A stretch of 23,922 nt of DNA from the IMG/VR virus record IMGVR_UViG_3300034375_001686, positions 1 through 23,922 of that record. One strand, given 5' to 3'. The notes beneath the pieces were generated by a model. The model ran no database searches. It was not told the DNA's origin and was given only the letters and a program-made list of their open reading frames with translations. The stretch comes from a virus. This document shows, one piece after another, positions 16,699-23,359 of this stretch. The translations under genes and the position numbers were made by a program. Within the stretch, counting starts at the first letter, position 1. Every line of letters begins with the position of its first letter.

Positions 16699-18912
16699 AT
16701 GAATATTAAAAGGTTTGGCAAGTCGCCAAGGGAGTTAGCAGATAAGATTTCAAGGGAAGTTCCAAGGGATGTGCAATTACGCGCTTTGTTTGAAACCTAC
16801 CCAGATGGCATAAGGCGAGGCAAAGAATTTTTGCTCGGATCGTTGCGTGGCGAAAAAGGCCAATCTCTGCATATTAACATTGATACAAGTAGTCCGTGGT
16901 TTCTAACTGGCAAAGATTTTGAGTCAGGTGATGGAGTTGGTGGCATTACTAAAGTTATGAAGGAAGGACGGGGTTGGTCACTTGCAGAAACAGAGGAATA
17001 TTTTAAAAGTTATTTGCCGCAGAATTTTGTGCCTGCGCCCGAAAACATTATTAAGCCGAACAATCCTCAAAACTTTCAGGTCACAAACACTACAGCTACT
17101 AATGGTTTCCAACAACCCGAACAAAAGCCCGTGAAGTCTACCATTGGGCCGGGAACGCCTTTCGAGGACGAATATGTTTATACCGATAAACATGGCGAAG
17201 TCATTGTAACTGTTAGAAAATATTTTGATAAATGCGAGAATGGCGAACTGATCCTAGATAGCACGGGTAAGCCAAAGAAACAGTTTCGTCAGTTTATGGA
17301 TGGTCGGCAAGGAGTCCCTGAACCTCGGCCTCTTTATAATATCCCGAACATCTTTGACTCTGACACAATAATCTGGGTCGAAGGTGAGAAATGCGCAGAT
17401 GCTCTTAGCCAGTTAGGTTACGCTGCAACTTGCACTATCGGTGGCTCTGGTATGTTGTCTGAAAACACAGCTTCCAAGTTCGACTTCGCACCATTGCGAA
17501 ACAAGCATGTAATCCTATGGCCTGATAATGATGCGGCTGGAAAAAAGCTCGCAAACATCGTTCAATCACAGGCGAAAGAAGCAGGCGCGAAGTCTATTTT
17601 GATGTTGCAAATCCCAGCATCTAAGGAAGAAAAGTGGGATGCTGCGGATGCTATTGAACAAGGTTTTAACGTAGAGACTTTTATTAAGTCTCACGAAAGT
17701 AAAGTCAAAAAGCCAATCTCTCTGTTGGATGATAGCCTGCTGATTAACCAATACTTCGTTGGCTCTCCACCAGAGCAAAAGTTTCTTATCGGCAATACAA
17801 TACCGCTAGGCGTTCCTGTTGTGTTCGCTGCTGCTGGTGACAGCGGTAAAGGTATGATGACACTCGACCTCGCCATGAAAGTATCTTCTGGCGCATCTAT
17901 GCAGAACTCTTTCGGTGGTCTGGTTTCAGAGCACGGCGATGCAATTATTCTTACTGCTGAAGATGATAAAGACGAAATGCACAGACGTATCTCGCGCCTT
18001 GATCCTAAAAAGTATCGGGAGCATTATGACCATAAGCTGCGCATCTTACCATTACCAAACCTCGGTGGTGTGTTTCCGGTCATGCAGAAGATCGACAACT
18101 CATATCACATGGGTGAAGAATTTTCTCGTATATATGAACAGATGTTAGAGATGACAAATCTCAAGCTGATCGTTATTGACCCTCTCGCCTCGTTTGTTCA
18201 CGCAGATGTAAATGCTGACCCTGCGGCGGGTGCTGCATTTATGAGTATGCTCGCACAGATGGCAACCGAAACAGGCGCAACTGTTATGGTCAATCACCAC
18301 ATGGCAAAGATCAAAGACAAGGAGCCGATCAAAACACCAGAGGAAGCTCGTAACATGATTCGCGGAACCTCTGCTATTGTTGATGGCGTGCGTGCTGCGT
18401 TCGCTGTTTGGCCTGTAACCGAATCGGTTGCACAGCAACGCTGCAAGGATTTAAACGTACCATATACGCGCAATGGCGTGTTCGATGGCGCAGTCGTGAA
18501 ATCAAACGGGCCAGCGAATAGAGAATTTAGACACTTCATTCGTAACCCGAACACAGGTTTGCTGGAAGATAGATCACAAGACATTGTTGCGGTAAAATTC
18601 TCACTGACGGTTCGCAACAGACTTGATCTAATATTTAAGTTTGTCGAAGAGCGAGAATTATCAGGGCATCCAGTTACAAAAGGTGGCAATACTGATGGTC
18701 TGTACGAAATGGTTCGGATTGCACCAGAAGATGACATGACTGCGGCAAACTTAAAACTTATGAATTTAAGTAGAGATACATTCGAAAAGGACGTTACAAA
18801 GCTGCAAAATGCCAATCGCATCGGGGCATTTAGAGTTACCAGAGTCGGGCCGAAGAAGTTCCTCGGCGTGGTGGGCGGGAGCCTACATAATAATGAACCG
18901 ACTATTGACTGA
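16699..18912 (+). CDS. Bifunctional TOPRIM primase / RepA-type replicative helicase
   Basis: 737 aa. The N-terminal about 110 residues (LLGSLRGEKGQSLHIN, SPWFLTGKDFESGDG) resemble the primase-associated N-domain but lack zinc cysteines. A TOPRIM domain follows, with glutamate in WVEGEKCADAL (226-236) and WPDNDAAG (274-281). The C-terminal RecA fold has Walker A AAAGDSGKG (377-385), Walker B IVIDP (491-495) and sensor VNHHMAKI (531-538), placing it with AAA_25/RepA-like hexameric helicases. It primes and unwinds phage DNA. A DNA polymerase is not in the window, so it must lie elsewhere or be supplied by the host. Confidence 0.85.
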   Translation: MNIKRFGKSPRELADKISREVPRDVQLRALFETYPDGIRRGKEFLLGSLRGEKGQSLHINIDTSSPWFLTGKDFESGDGVGGITKVMKEGRGWSLAETEEYFKSYLPQNFVPAPENIIKPNNPQNFQVTNTTATNGFQQPEQKPVKSTIGPGTPFEDEYVYTDKHGEVIVTVRKYFDKCENGELILDSTGKPKKQFRQFMDGRQGVPEPRPLYNIPNIFDSDTIIWVEGEKCADALSQLGYAATCTIGGSGMLSENTASKFDFAPLRNKHVILWPDNDAAGKKLANIVQSQAKEAGAKSILMLQIPASKEEKWDAADAIEQGFNVETFIKSHESKVKKPISLLDDSLLINQYFVGSPPEQKFLIGNTIPLGVPVVFAAAGDSGKGMMTLDLAMKVSSGASMQNSFGGLVSEHGDAIILTAEDDKDEMHRRISRLDPKKYREHYDHKLRILPLPNLGGVFPVMQKIDNSYHMGEEFSRIYEQMLEMTNLKLIVIDPLASFVHADVNADPAAGAAFMSMLAQMATETGATVMVNHHMAKIKDKEPIKTPEEARNMIRGTSAIVDGVRAAFAVWPVTESVAQQRCKDLNVPYTRNGVFDGAVVKSNGPANREFRHFIRNPNTGLLEDRSQDIVAVKFSLTVRNRLDLIFKFVEERELSGHPVTKGGNTDGLYEMVRIAPEDDMTAANLKLMNLSRDTFEKDVTKLQNANRIGAFRVTRVGPKKFLGVVGGSLHNNEPTID

Positions 18913-18960
18913 TGTGGGAGTATATGGTAATAATACCAAGTTCTAGTAAAGGAGATCATT

Positions 18961-19768: not shown

Positions 19769-20623
19769 TTAGAATTGACCCATCTGCTGCTGACCGTAAC
19801 CCATAGAATTGTTCGGGTTATATGATCCCATCTGCTGCGGTTGGTACGGATTAGACATTCCGCCATAACCTCCGTAACCACCCATCTGCTGACCCATGCT
19901 ATATCCGCCAAACTGCTGCGGCTGCGGTCTTTGCTGCTGATACGGGTTCTGCTGATAACCACCCATCATGCCATATTGCTGCTGCGGCTGACGCTGCTGC
20001 ATCGGCCCTTGATAAGATGGCCTCTGTGGCTGCTGCATCATCTGTGGTCGTCCAAATCCCTGATAAGGCTGCATACCATTAGGGCGCATACCACCAATAC
20101 CCATCATGCGAGATTGTTGCATGCGAGGCTGCTGCATGCGCTGCATCTGCTGTTCCATCTGTTGAATTCGGTAGTCTTTGTAACCGCCAGTGCCTTCAAA
20201 CGCAGTGCGTAGCTCGCCCATACGATCTTGCTGCTCTTGGTTAGGCTGCATAGACTTCTGATACTCCATCAAAGCCTGATACTGCTCGTTGCCCTCAAAC
20301 GGGTTAGCTGGCTCGGCTCTCTGGCCTTGCTGTTGCATCTGCTGTTGCATCCGTTGAAGAAACGCTTGCTGTTGCTGTTGTTGTTGAATGTTGGGTTGCC
20401 CACCCCTGTTACCCATCATGTTCGCGTTTGAAGTGGTCATATAACTTGGCGCACGACCAACTCTTTGACCCCCAATCGAAGGAGTTACCATAGGTTGTTG
20501 GCCTCCTCGGTTGCCAAAGAAACCTCCAAGACCGCCCATAAAGGGATTATTAGGTCGAGGCTGTGACCTTGGCTGGTTGAATTGACGAACAGAATTGCCA
20601 AAAGGTGACATCATCATGGACAT
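19769..20623 (-). CDS. Low-complexity Q/G/M/P/Y-rich (prion-like) protein
   Basis: 284 aa. I use the ATG at 20623, behind GGAG (TTGGAGATTGCT), because the longer open frame upstream lacks a ribosome site. After a short N-terminus the chain is almost entirely Gln, Gly, Met, Pro, Tyr, Asn and Arg. It has a Q7 run, many Met-Gln-Gln repeats and, at the C-terminus, repeats like GGYGGYGGM and NPYQPQQMGSYNPNN. Only one short region, EQYQALMEYQKSMQPNQEQQ, looks partly ordered. There are no hydrophobic or catalytic segments. The composition is that of intrinsically disordered, phase-separating or aggregation-prone proteins. The function is unknown; a virion or DNA-condensing role is possible. It is last in the leftward operon. 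Confidence 0.75.
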   Translation of the reverse strand: MSMMMSPFGNSVRQFNQPRSQPRPNNPFMGGLGGFFGNRGGQQPMVTPSIGGQRVGRAPSYMTTSNANMMGNRGGQPNIQQQQQQQAFLQRMQQQMQQQGQRAEPANPFEGNEQYQALMEYQKSMQPNQEQQDRMGELRTAFEGTGGYKDYRIQQMEQQMQRMQQPRMQQSRMMGIGGMRPNGMQPYQGFGRPQMMQQPQRPSYQGPMQQRQPQQQYGMMGGYQQNPYQQQRPQPQQFGGYSMGQQMGGYGGYGGMSNPYQPQQMGSYNPNNSMGYGQQQMGQF

Positions 20624-20643
20624 AGCAATCTCCAAAAAGAAAC

Positions 20644-20655
20644 TTATTCGGGTTA
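20644..20655 (+). repeat. TTRTTCGGNTTA motif copy in a 34-bp intergenic gap
   Basis: TTATTCGGGTTA lies in the only gap between the 74-aa gene and the Q/G-rich gene, ending 22 bp upstream of the Q/G-rich start. It is in the same + orientation as the other non-coding copies, i.e. antisense to the local genes. Confidence 0.7.
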
Positions 20656-20657
20656 TA

Positions 20658-20882
20658 TCACCCTTCTTTGATCCAATCAACTCTTCGTTCACCCATGTAA
20701 GAGTCAACAACCATAATTAAAAAAATTGGCAAATCATTTGGATTCAAACCTAAACCGAACAAAAGTTCGCAAACTAAATTACGCGAATCAGATAAAGAAA
20801 CTTTTTCAGGAAGCTGCTGGAGAAGATCACTAATAATCTTCTCCGTTCTTTCTGGATTTAATTGCTCTTTGCTTATGCCCAT
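20658..20882 (-). CDS. 74-aa hypothetical protein following the endolysin
   Basis: ATG at 20882 with AGGAAGGA about 8 bp upstream, inside the endolysin 3' end; a longer open frame reading upstream overlaps the endolysin and is not used. The N-terminal half is charged and helical (ERTEKIISDLLQQLPEKVSL). The middle contains LVCELLFGLGLNPNDLPIFLIMVV, moderately hydrophobic but interrupted by Asn/Pro/Asp, so a clear membrane span is doubtful. No family is recognised. Its place beside the lysis gene hints at a lysis accessory, only by context. Confidence 0.6.
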   Translation of the reverse strand: MGISKEQLNPERTEKIISDLLQQLPEKVSLSDSRNLVCELLFGLGLNPNDLPIFLIMVVDSYMGERRVDWIKEG

Positions 20883-20886
20883 TTTT

Positions 20887-21366
20887 CTAATCCTTCCTAG
20901 ATTTAGGTCTAATGCTGGTCTTAATCGCAACAGGTCGATCATAAGAATAAAAAATATGCTGCCCAACACGAACAATTCTGTGAAGTTTCCTGCGCCAAAC
21001 TGGCTTAACATTCACGGTATGATAGTGATCTGCATCGGTATAAGGCAAGATGTCTGGGTTGTTTATAATCTTAACCGCAAGCTCTTGAGCCTTAACCCAC
21101 GCTACCTCGTCTCTAGGTTTTGGGGTTTTGTTGTTCCGATAGAACGAAAACTGTCGGTCTTGCGTAATAACATTGCACATAGAAGAGGGCCAACGCGGTG
21201 ACTCAATGCGATTGAAAATCACCCGCGCTACCATCAACTTTCCAACATAGGGTTCCCCTCGTGCCTCGTGATACAAAGCAAGCGAAAGACACGCGGCTGC
21301 GGCTATCAAAAGAACATAGCCGTAATTGTAACACCAATTAAGATGTAGAGAAATAAAAGTGTCCAT
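20887..21366 (-). CDS. SleB-like cell wall hydrolase (endolysin) with N-terminal membrane segment
   Basis: 159 aa. LALYHEARGEP (29-39, catalytic Glu34 expected), GKLMVARVIFNRI (42-54), WPSSMCNVITQDRQFSFY (59-76) and ADHYHTV match the Hydrolase_2/SleB family, which cleaves peptidoglycan glycan strands. Residues about 15-31 (YGYVLLIAAAACLSLAL) form a single hydrophobic segment, so it could be a signal-anchor endolysin exported by the host Sec system. The ATG at 21366 has no Shine-Dalgarno. It is overlapped by a small out-of-frame ORF that may couple its translation. The length is typical for phage SleB-type lysins. Confidence 0.8.
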   Translation of the reverse strand: MDTFISLHLNWCYNYGYVLLIAAAACLSLALYHEARGEPYVGKLMVARVIFNRIESPRWPSSMCNVITQDRQFSFYRNNKTPKPRDEVAWVKAQELAVKIINNPDILPYTDADHYHTVNVKPVWRRKLHRIVRVGQHIFYSYDRPVAIKTSIRPKSRKD

Positions 21367-21414: not shown

Positions 21415-21744
21415 TTATTTTTCAATACCAAATTTGTACATCCAATTTTGTAAAACCTGATAACTCTTCAAGCCAAGCAACTTAGACGCATCGCTCAAGT
21501 TCTTAGATCGGGTCAATGCACGTTCAACATAATCAATTTTAATTCGGTCAATCGCCGCAGTCACATTAAAATCATCAGGATCAACAGACACTTGTTCGGG
21601 TAAAGTCTGCGGGTTTGCGTCCCGCCAATCCTCGTTTATCTTTAAATTATTCCGAACCTCATCAATGAAACCCATCAAATCACTCTCCGTTTTAATGCCG
21701 TTCAAACGATCAACGACATAGTGCATGCACATTCTATCATCCAT
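21415..21744 (-). CDS. Fis-type helix-turn-helix DNA-binding protein
   Basis: 109 aa. The C-terminal part (68-106), DYVERALTRSKNLSDASKLL then GLKSYQVLQNWMYKFGI, matches the Fis/NtrC C-terminal HTH (HTH_8). The N-terminal 60 residues (MHYVVDRLNGIKTESDLMGF...) are helical and acidic and not recognised. There is no AAA or receiver domain, so it resembles stand-alone Fis-like nucleoid or transcription regulators. The ATG overlaps the preceding 434-aa gene by 8 bp, indicating coupled translation. It probably dimerises and bends DNA. A target could be the 12-bp motif present throughout this phage, but that is only a hypothesis. Confidence 0.75.
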   Translation of the reverse strand: MDDRMCMHYVVDRLNGIKTESDLMGFIDEVRNNLKINEDWRDANPQTLPEQVSVDPDDFNVTAAIDRIKIDYVERALTRSKNLSDASKLLGLKSYQVLQNWMYKFGIEK

Positions 21745-23041
21745 TATTCTTATCCCTTTTAACTCTTAAAATATACTCGTGATCAATTACGCCCAACTCA
21801 GGATCACCGCAAACCATAGGATTAATCCACTTGCGCTCCTTCACGCGACCAAACGTATCCTTGTAAACGCGCCAGTGACCACGCCGAACATGTTGACGCT
21901 TCGGAGAGCCGTTACCAGTAAACAACTGCTCGTAAACAGTCACGCCACGCTTCGGTAACTCAATCTCAATTACCTTAACCTCGCTCTTTGGAACGACACG
22001 ACCCCAACGAACCGAACTAACCTTGGTCGGAGAAGAAGAAACTTCCCGAACAAATCTTGGGTAGTTCAACAACGAAAACACCGCGATTAAAAACCTCAAG
22101 TCTCCTTCCATAGCATGACAAGATAAACTCAACATCTTTCTAATAATTTCTGGGTTTTGCATAACCGGACGCATGTCCTGACACGCAAAAAAATCATGCG
22201 GGTTAACTTGCAGGTTTGGCGTCCACTTTAAAAACTCATCAACCGCAGCATCATTATTATTAATATATGCTCGACCAATTAAAGCGCCCATAAAGTTAGC
22301 TCTAGTATCTTCATTTTCCCGATCACTCATAAAGCTATCTTCGCCAACTTGAAACTTGCTAGACTTTAATGAAACAGGCTCATCGGGATCGTTCGAAAAT
22401 AAGAATGAACACATAGGGCCAGTAATCTTTGGAACATTAGACGTACCATCCAAAGGATCACACATCACCAGAGAATACTCGAAGCAACCGTTGCCATTGT
22501 TGCGGATTAAATAACCAAGCCTATTCGCAACGCTGTCGCGGTTATCATCTACCGGAATACCAGTCTTTTCGAAATTTTCTTGAATACAGTCAAAACGCTT
22601 TAACTCGTCCCACTCAATCCACAAAGTATCAAACGCAGGAATTGCGCGTTCGATCAACTTTGAAAAATACTTCGGGTAAGAAAAACTTAATGCAACAGCA
22701 TGCTCAACAAAATTGTCGGACAACTTCATGCGTTCAGCTTTTGCCATGTCATTGCGAAACGAACGAATAGCAAAATCGCCGCGCTTGCTCTGTCTGTAAG
22801 AGTGCATAGACCTCTTCGGGACTGCCAAGCCAGACAGTACCTCGTTATAAAGATCAATGTTCGAACTACGATCACCCTTTCTCATTGTATGTTTTAAGAT
22901 TTCGCCAGCAGCAGTCAAAGAAACATCATCTCCCTCCTGACGAAGAAAACCTTTATCCTCAAGATCGTTTAACAAATCCTTAGTTTTGTTCGGGTTAAAC
23001 GATTTAGAAGCCCTTTTAATAATATCATTTTTAGAAACCAT
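21737..23041 (-). CDS. 434-aa protein of unknown function with winged-helix-like N-terminus
   Basis: I take the ATG at 23041 (TAATG overlap with the micro-ORF), because GGGGAG lies 8 bp before it; another ATG two codons upstream sits too near that site. Residues about 1-55 (NDIIKRASKSF, DLLNDLEDKGFLRQEG, VSLTAAGEIL) look like a winged helix. The body (60-360) contains conserved-looking aromatic and Asp/Glu residues but no motif I can name. The C-terminal about 45 residues, RRGHWRVYKDTFGRVKERKW then INPMVCGDPELGVIDHEYIL, resemble a tail module seen at the end of various uncharacterised phage proteins. Most of the operon rests on this gene, so it may be a regulator. No enzyme function can be given. 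Confidence 0.7.
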   Translation of the reverse strand: MVSKNDIIKRASKSFNPNKTKDLLNDLEDKGFLRQEGDDVSLTAAGEILKHTMRKGDRSSNIDLYNEVLSGLAVPKRSMHSYRQSKRGDFAIRSFRNDMAKAERMKLSDNFVEHAVALSFSYPKYFSKLIERAIPAFDTLWIEWDELKRFDCIQENFEKTGIPVDDNRDSVANRLGYLIRNNGNGCFEYSLVMCDPLDGTSNVPKITGPMCSFLFSNDPDEPVSLKSSKFQVGEDSFMSDRENEDTRANFMGALIGRAYINNNDAAVDEFLKWTPNLQVNPHDFFACQDMRPVMQNPEIIRKMLSLSCHAMEGDLRFLIAVFSLLNYPRFVREVSSSPTKVSSVRWGRVVPKSEVKVIEIELPKRGVTVYEQLFTGNGSPKRQHVRRGHWRVYKDTFGRVKERKWINPMVCGDPELGVIDHEYILRVKRDKNNG

Positions 23042-23109
23042 TACCATTTCTCCCCAAACACTTTTGCAAATACCTCGTCCAACAGACGCTCCATGTCACG
23101 CTCACTCAT
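23041..23109 (-). CDS. 22-aa micro-ORF with strong ribosome binding site
   Basis: ATG at 23109 overlaps the stop of the preceding zinc micro-protein, with GGAGGAA four bases upstream. It encodes a charged amphipathic helix (starting MSERDMERLLDEVFAK) and its TAA overlaps the 434-aa start (TAATG). It may simply carry ribosomes from the zinc gene to the 434-aa gene (a coupling leader) or encode a short peptide. The good Shine-Dalgarno and exact overlaps favour real translation. Confidence 0.55.
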   Translation of the reverse strand: MSERDMERLLDEVFAKVFGEKW

Positions 23110-23236
23110 CGTCTTCCTCCAGTTCACCAGTTCCATTGCACATATCGCAATCCACATCGCGGAACGAATCAACTTCCACGGTCACTTCTAGTTTGCCGCC
23201 CCCCTTACATTCGGGACAATCAATCACATTTGTCAT
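23102..23236 (-). CDS. 44-aa DnaJ-type zinc-knuckle micro-protein
   Basis: ATG at 23236 with GAGGA about 9 bp upstream, the first gene after the leftward promoter. It contains CPECKGGGKLEV (7-18) and CDMCNGTGEL (30-39), two CxxCxGxG knuckles as in the DnaJ central zinc domain, here alone without J domain or substrate-binding part. The tail is acidic. Similar single zinc micro-proteins occur in phage early genes; they may bind a partner or RNA. It starts an operon of four overlapping genes. Confidence 0.7.
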   Translation of the reverse strand: MTNVIDCPECKGGGKLEVTVEVDSFRDVDCDMCNGTGELEEDDE

Positions 23237-23266: not shown

Positions 23267-23295
23267 ACATTATCCCACATAAAATAAATTGTCAA
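23267..23295 (-). promoter_or_regulatory. Leftward promoter of the regulator/lysis operon
   Basis: On the minus strand a perfect TTGACA (23295-23290) is followed by AT-rich DNA. GATAAT (23274-23269) sits 15 bp away, or TAATGT (23272-23267) 17 bp away. It lies right after a strong terminator and before the first gene of the operon, so a fresh transcript start is expected here. ATGTGGGATAATGTGGGG (23280-23263), which contains a repeated ATGTGGG, overlaps the -10 and could be an operator. Confidence 0.6.
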
Positions 23296-23316: not shown

Positions 23317-23359
23317 AATAAAAAAAGCCCCCGACACTAAAAGGACATGTATCGGGGGC
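23317..23359 (-). terminator. Strong intrinsic terminator (leftward)
   Basis: GCCCCCGA (23327-23334) pairs perfectly with TCGGGGGC (23352-23359); loop 17 nt. On the minus strand the stem is followed directly by seven T residues (23326 downward). It ends transcription coming from the right and insulates the promoter at 23295-23267. Confidence 0.85.

Follow-up and report, generated by a model that had tools for sequence, protein, structure and literature searches.

A transferable phage gene set between a micro-ORF and a Fis-type gene encodes a probable distant member of the AcrVA2 superfamily

Four overlapping genes and their surroundings

The window, by which we mean the whole stretch of DNA analyzed, comprises the 23,922 bases of an IMG/VR virus record. 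On its minus strand, a gene for a 44-aa single DnaJ-type zinc knuckle protein (zn, 23102..23236) is followed by a 22-aa micro-ORF that overlaps both of its neighbors (micro, 23041..23109), by a gene for a 434-aa protein (21737..23041), and by a gene for a 109-aa protein with a C-terminal Fis-type HTH (fis, 21415..21744), after which comes a gene for a SleB-type cell wall hydrolase (20887..21366, minus strand; PF07486, E 2.7e-22). The genes zn and micro overlap by 8 nt (ATGAGTGA), micro and the 434-aa gene by 1 nt, at a TAATG in which the micro stop codon shares a base with the ATG at 23041, and the 434-aa gene, whose stop lies at 21737, overlaps fis by 8 nt (ATGGATGA); an alternative start of the 434-aa gene, the upstream ATG at 23047, would yield 436 aa. 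Four tightly coupled genes had been described here in the earlier note, and direct reading together with an NG86 comparison of the window with its relative L001 (Ka/Ks 0.07-0.18 across all four genes) confirmed them. Because the close relatives L001-L005 retain the four ORFs up to their contig ends and all four are under purifying selection, we regard them as real genes.

The readings given in the earlier note to the three small genes were likewise upheld. The zn product matches PF00684 with an E of 2.9e-5 (24.7/32.7 bits, under the curated cut-off) and carries two CxxCxGxG motifs, which make up one DnaJ-type zinc site; a DnaJ central domain has four such motifs and two zinc sites, more than this 44-aa protein contains. 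A GGAGG Shine-Dalgarno sequence stands six bases ahead of the micro ATG, and coding is supported by the comparison with L001 (pS 0.72, from 8 synonymous changes at 11 synonymous sites; pN 0.24) and by amino acid identities of 68-73% in L001, L003, L109-L111, and L114. The synonymous divergence of micro (23041-23109) from L001 is far above that of the neighboring genes, and the L001 micro is the version of the L003 type, which suggests a recombination breakpoint inside micro. The Fis-type protein of the window matches the RtcR C-terminus in PADLOC (E 2.9e-9); HTH_8 falls below its cut-off in this protein, as it does in the L110 homolog (16.2 bits), and exceeds it in the 61% identical homolog of L117 (24.1 vs. 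22 bits).

Upstream of zn, direct reading of the minus strand identified a promoter-like site (23269..23295) with a perfect TTGACA -35 element (23295-23290) and an imperfect -10 element, either TGG-GATAAT with its TGn extension (23274-23269, spacing 15 nt) or TAATGT at a spacing of 17 nt, the latter having TAATAT as its L001 counterpart. A consensus promoter scan of the region did not list the TTGACA site. This promoter is conserved in L001 and L002 and replaced in L003 and L004, where, as in L109-L114, a gene for a 100-aa HTH protein abuts zn in its place; the view that one TTGACA promoter drives the operon therefore holds for the window and its closest relatives but not for the phages in which another gene abuts zn. 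The 100-aa protein (L003 2526-2828, L110 2017-2319, L111 2483-2785) combines an HTH at its N-terminus (phrog_323, a D5-like regulator, E 4e-7) with a hydrophobic segment at its C-terminus. The consensus scan also placed a terminator-like hairpin (23327..23346, minus strand) ahead of the operon promoter, such sites being no more numerous than shuffled expectation. A search of the promoter region for a palindromic operator found AT-rich imperfect repeats only, and for this reason we make no claim of autorepression.

Several further features lie beyond the hydrolase gene. The ORF that follows it (20658-21011) overlaps it out of frame, and homologs of this ORF begin near 20880; the extra 43 N-terminal residues form one hydrophobic segment within the hydrolase gene, and the overlap may be due to chance or may be a nested holin-like piece. 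Positions 19769-20710 encode a Gln/Met-rich low-complexity protein that L001 also has at this place; L117 has a protein of similar start. Antisense to the primase-helicase gene, a 221-aa ORF (18294-18959, minus strand) stays open in the window as well as in L001 (8937-9602), probably as an effect of codon usage.

Gene order in related phages

In four sister phages (L109, L110, L111, and L114), zn, micro, and fis persist without the 434-aa gene. The three genes stand in direct succession in L111, where micro runs straight into fis, and the micro/fis junction is intact in all four phages (GAGCGTTGGTGATGGTAGATGATACGATG); L109, L110, and L114 carry extra sequence between zn and micro, with a 159-172-aa ORF there in L109 and L110. 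The zn gene is conserved both with and without the 434-aa gene, and fis is present in L115-L117, where micro and the 434-aa gene are both absent. Fis homologs in phages lacking the 434-aa gene are 61-79% identical. Relatives of the 434-aa protein at 26-44% identity occur in dozens of contigs without Fis, and, outside the close clade, none of the approximately 40 distinct relatives in viral contigs was found to adjoin Fis. Comparison of the window with L003 gave a Ks of 0.27 for the 434-aa gene, as against 0.79 for fis and 1.2 for micro, and the L003 fis differs by a Ks of only 0.11-0.17 from that of phages without the 434-aa gene. The low Ks of the 434-aa gene against that of fis indicates that it moved between lineages and has a separate history. 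We conclude that the 434-aa gene is optional, transferable cargo set exactly between micro and fis.

These observations bear directly on the proposal of the earlier note that the four genes form a transcription switch or a defence/counter-defence complex, for which co-occurrence in other phages had been named as a check. The genes occur separately (in L109-L111 and L114, and again in L115-L117), the outcome that the note had named as refuting, and they differ in Ks, so that the four-gene unit is not supported, whereas the counter-defence direction of the proposal is favored by the AcrVA2 superfamily relationship described below. A single co-evolved transcription-switch complex would fit the overlapping frames and the promoter common to the window, L001, and L002, but with the genes apart in relatives, unequal divergence, and the empty sites of L109-L111 and L114 contradicting it, we consider it extremely improbable.

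The downstream neighbors of the 434-aa relatives differ in most contigs. In L025 and L060 a homolog of the SleB-type hydrolase lies directly 3' of the AcrVA2-like gene, and relatives in L045, L046, and L052 lie in a region with the same downstream families (g117 and an 85-aa family) although they belong to another part of the tree; this suggests that AcrVA2-like genes have entered the region repeatedly. A zinc-knuckle homolog lies upstream of the L050 relative. Inspection by eye of gene names and sequences near the AcrVA2-like genes of L008, L009, L023, L025, L035, L045, L051, and L099 showed DUF932-like, VWA/CobT-like, and MoxR-type ATPase genes. The 434-aa gene overlaps two genes whose products probably bind nucleic acids, and the cell wall hydrolase gene comes after it; this position, as well as the hydrolase genes of L025 and L060, could be explained if the AcrVA2-like protein bound RNA or ribosomes to regulate genes of the phage itself and, with a winged helix ahead of it and a Fis-type protein after it, helped to switch same-strand late or lysis genes. 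Such a role is unlikely, in that sister phages keep the rest of the region without the 434-aa gene, the downstream neighbors mostly vary, and the Ks values speak for transfer independent of the flanking genes.

Family and predicted fold of the 434-aa protein

Searches of Pfam, PHROGs, NCBIfam, and PADLOC returned no family for the 434-aa protein. Under relaxed limits, its tblastn matches lay in the C-terminal third of phage proteins, two of them carrying an AcrVA2 annotation. When the 434-aa protein was compared by profile (hhalign) with nine independent phage proteins (set A3, two of them labeled “AcrVA2” by their depositors), the match reached 98.5% and E 2.2e-15 over residues 92-427 (295 columns). 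A search with the C-terminal alignment located 70 IMG/VR loci, from which 42 distinct relatives were extracted, and 22 relatives taken without the window clade matched the nine phage proteins at 99.5% (E 2.3e-23). No relatives were found by tblastn in plasmids, and the genome collection held one relative-bearing contig, in a Rhodospirillaceae MAG, which is probably viral. The cultured phages closest in their tail protein (Roseobacter CRP-902, Pelagibacter HTVC023P and HTVC027P, and DSL-LC04) yielded no match to the family profile. Two other profile matches were limited in extent: phrog_6160 (322 positions) matches the C-terminal motif only, and a cytidylyltransferase (2xme, E 0.017-0.034 against the profile) was dropped as matching over a short stretch only.

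In order to relate this family to AcrVA2 of known structure, we used a profile of seven bona fide AcrVA2 proteins (set A8) of the type of Shewanella phage Y11 ORF43, which itself matches 7CI1 with an E of 1.5e-72. Against the relatives of the 434-aa protein (set A7), hhalign gave 95.1% and E 3e-8, confined to 68 C-terminal columns around KRxHxRRGHW; the score of 67.1 is well above chance, 100 column shuffles reaching at most 22.9 and the reversed profile 19.6. The direct comparison of A8 with A3 is weak (27.7%), so that the link to AcrVA2 is carried by A7, the shuffles, and the fold. We rejected the 434-aa protein as an AcrVA2 ortholog: no significant full-length sequence match was found, phmmer against 7CI1 recovering the same C-terminal motif at a non-significant E of 0.9 over 26 residues, hmmsearch against 7CI1 giving no significant match (E 0.13), and hhalign covering only the 68 C-terminal columns.

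An AF2 model built from 43 sequences reached a pLDDT of 75.9 and a pTM of 0.70, whereas the first model, from five near-identical sequences, had an overall pLDDT of 37. Foldseek itself found no match to the 434-aa model in the PDB. When 261 Foldseek candidate chains were re-aligned with VIA-align, the two AcrVA2 chains ranked first (7ci2, Z 5.2) and second (7ci1, Z 5.0), ahead of the next at 2.4, with 172-175 residues aligned across model residues 61-379; a Z near 5 is modest. Taken together, sequence ties the C-terminus to AcrVA2 and structure ties the rest, making the 434-aa protein very probably a distant member of the AcrVA2 superfamily rather than an ortholog.

The protein appears to consist of a winged-helix-like domain (residues 1-55; 22877..23041, minus strand) and an AcrVA2-superfamily domain (residues ~61-427). 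The winged-helix-like start described in the earlier note is consistent with the helices and two strands of the first AF2 model (pLDDT 60-74 at the N-terminus) and with HTH_45 on residues 1-55, but the HTH_45 matches are weak and below cut-off in both the window (E 0.0053) and L001 (E 0.00067). This domain belongs to the closest clade only: it is absent from the relatives at 26-44% identity, most relatives start near residue 63 and a few have different N-terminal extensions, and a scan of viral contigs with residues 1-55 returned the same phages only. The middle domain is variable among relatives. Eight positions are invariant in 43 of 43 sequences (alignment A6), namely Asn326, His384, Arg387, Gly388, His389, Trp405, Gly412, and Gly417, and the same alignment defines a C-terminal signature at residues 384-426 (21764..21892, minus strand), in which HxxRGHWR is followed by WINPxxxGDPELG. 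The KRxHxRRGHW motif is also present in the AcrVA2 chain 7ci1, and AcrVA2 proteins carry it in the form PHIRRGHWH. The 434-aa protein is now assigned in kind, as a winged-helix-bearing, mobile AcrVA2-superfamily member.

Possible role and comparison with known systems

AcrVA2 recognizes the nascent N-terminus of Cas12a (LSKT) and causes loss of the cas12a mRNA through a degradation machinery that is unknown, and has been described as the first documented case of prokaryotic translation-dependent mRNA degradation directed against a defence (PMC13131331). According to a 2025 meeting report, AcrVA2 degrades the mRNA of tagged enzymes, which enables down-regulation of Cas9 and Cas12f (PMC12908700). 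By homology, we give about an even chance to the 434-aa protein being an accessory counter-defence or takeover protein with AcrVA2-like action. Under this proposal, a three-gene phage regulatory cassette of zn, micro, and the Fis-type HTH gene would have acquired the 434-aa gene between micro and fis; the variable middle domain would read one specific host polypeptide during its synthesis, and loss of the mRNA under translation would be triggered by the conserved C-terminal HxxRGHW module, so that a host defence or competing protein would never be produced, while the clade-specific winged helix may aid contact with nucleic acid. We infer each of these elements, that is, the counter-defence role, recognition of a nascent peptide, mRNA decay, and a target other than Cas12a. 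Alternatively, the C-terminal motif could serve another use, as a module that binds RNA or ribosomes in general.

With regard to the target, we searched 385 Alphaproteobacteria, a group to which the hosts of the cultured phages closest in tail protein pointed (Roseobacter, Pelagibacter), for Cas12a (TIGR04330) and found none over the cut-off, in a search where no control gave a signal and for a phage whose host is not established. The known function of AcrVA2 may therefore not apply here, and Cas12a is a poor candidate for the target. A related reading is that the 434-aa protein is an anti-CRISPR against Cas12a itself and the Fis-type protein an Aca-like autorepressor. Superfamily membership would agree with it, as would the resemblance to acr-aca operons, in which an anti-defence-like gene is followed by an overlapping HTH gene: here fis lies directly downstream in one operon with an 8-nt overlap, and another small HTH-like ORF overlaps the end of the L023 relative. 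In contrast to an aca gene, however, fis is a backbone gene that is present in phages without the cargo and is not tied to the 434-aa gene; together with the Cas12a search above and a middle domain, the would-be peptide holder, that has no detectable sequence similarity to AcrVA2, this renders the reading very improbable.

Returning to AcrVA2-like action on another target, we tentatively suggest, as a possibility somewhat less probable than the counter-defence role itself, that AcrVA2 belongs, as one branch, to a large superfamily of phage proteins that use co-translational mRNA decay to silence host proteins differing from member to member and that combine a conserved C-terminal effector with a variable nascent-peptide reader, and that the branch in the window would have a target other than Cas12a and would have gained a winged helix. 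Neither Pfam nor PHROGs has a named entry for the family, which is spread over dozens of viral contigs and turns up where Cas12a seems rare, and this makes it a testable question whether co-translational mRNA silencing is a general phage weapon with swappable targets. For phage annotators there is also a caution, in that the label “anti-CRISPR AcrVA2” needs evidence of a Cas12a target.

Among known systems, AcrVA2 (PDB 7CI1/7CI2), which binds Moraxella bovoculi Cas12a and has a close homolog in ORF43 of Shewanella phage vB_SbaS_Y11, is likewise a phage accessory gene product, has the C-terminal KRxHxRRGHW region in common with the 434-aa family (the 95.1% match), and supplies the top two structural matches to the model. 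It differs in that the N-terminal and middle domains are alike in fold without detectable sequence similarity, in that the 434-aa protein has the extra winged-helix domain and a C-terminal tail that runs on with WIxPxxxGxxxLG, and in that Cas12a is an unlikely target of the latter. The proteins of Planktothrix phage Pag-Yong1, Citromicrobium phage vB_CbaS-RXM, and Caulobacter phages C1 and CcrSC, annotated as “AcrVA2” or hypothetical, lack the winged helix, lie in other gene neighborhoods, and are 15-21% identical to the window protein, but share its architecture over approximately 300 residues (98.5-99.5%).
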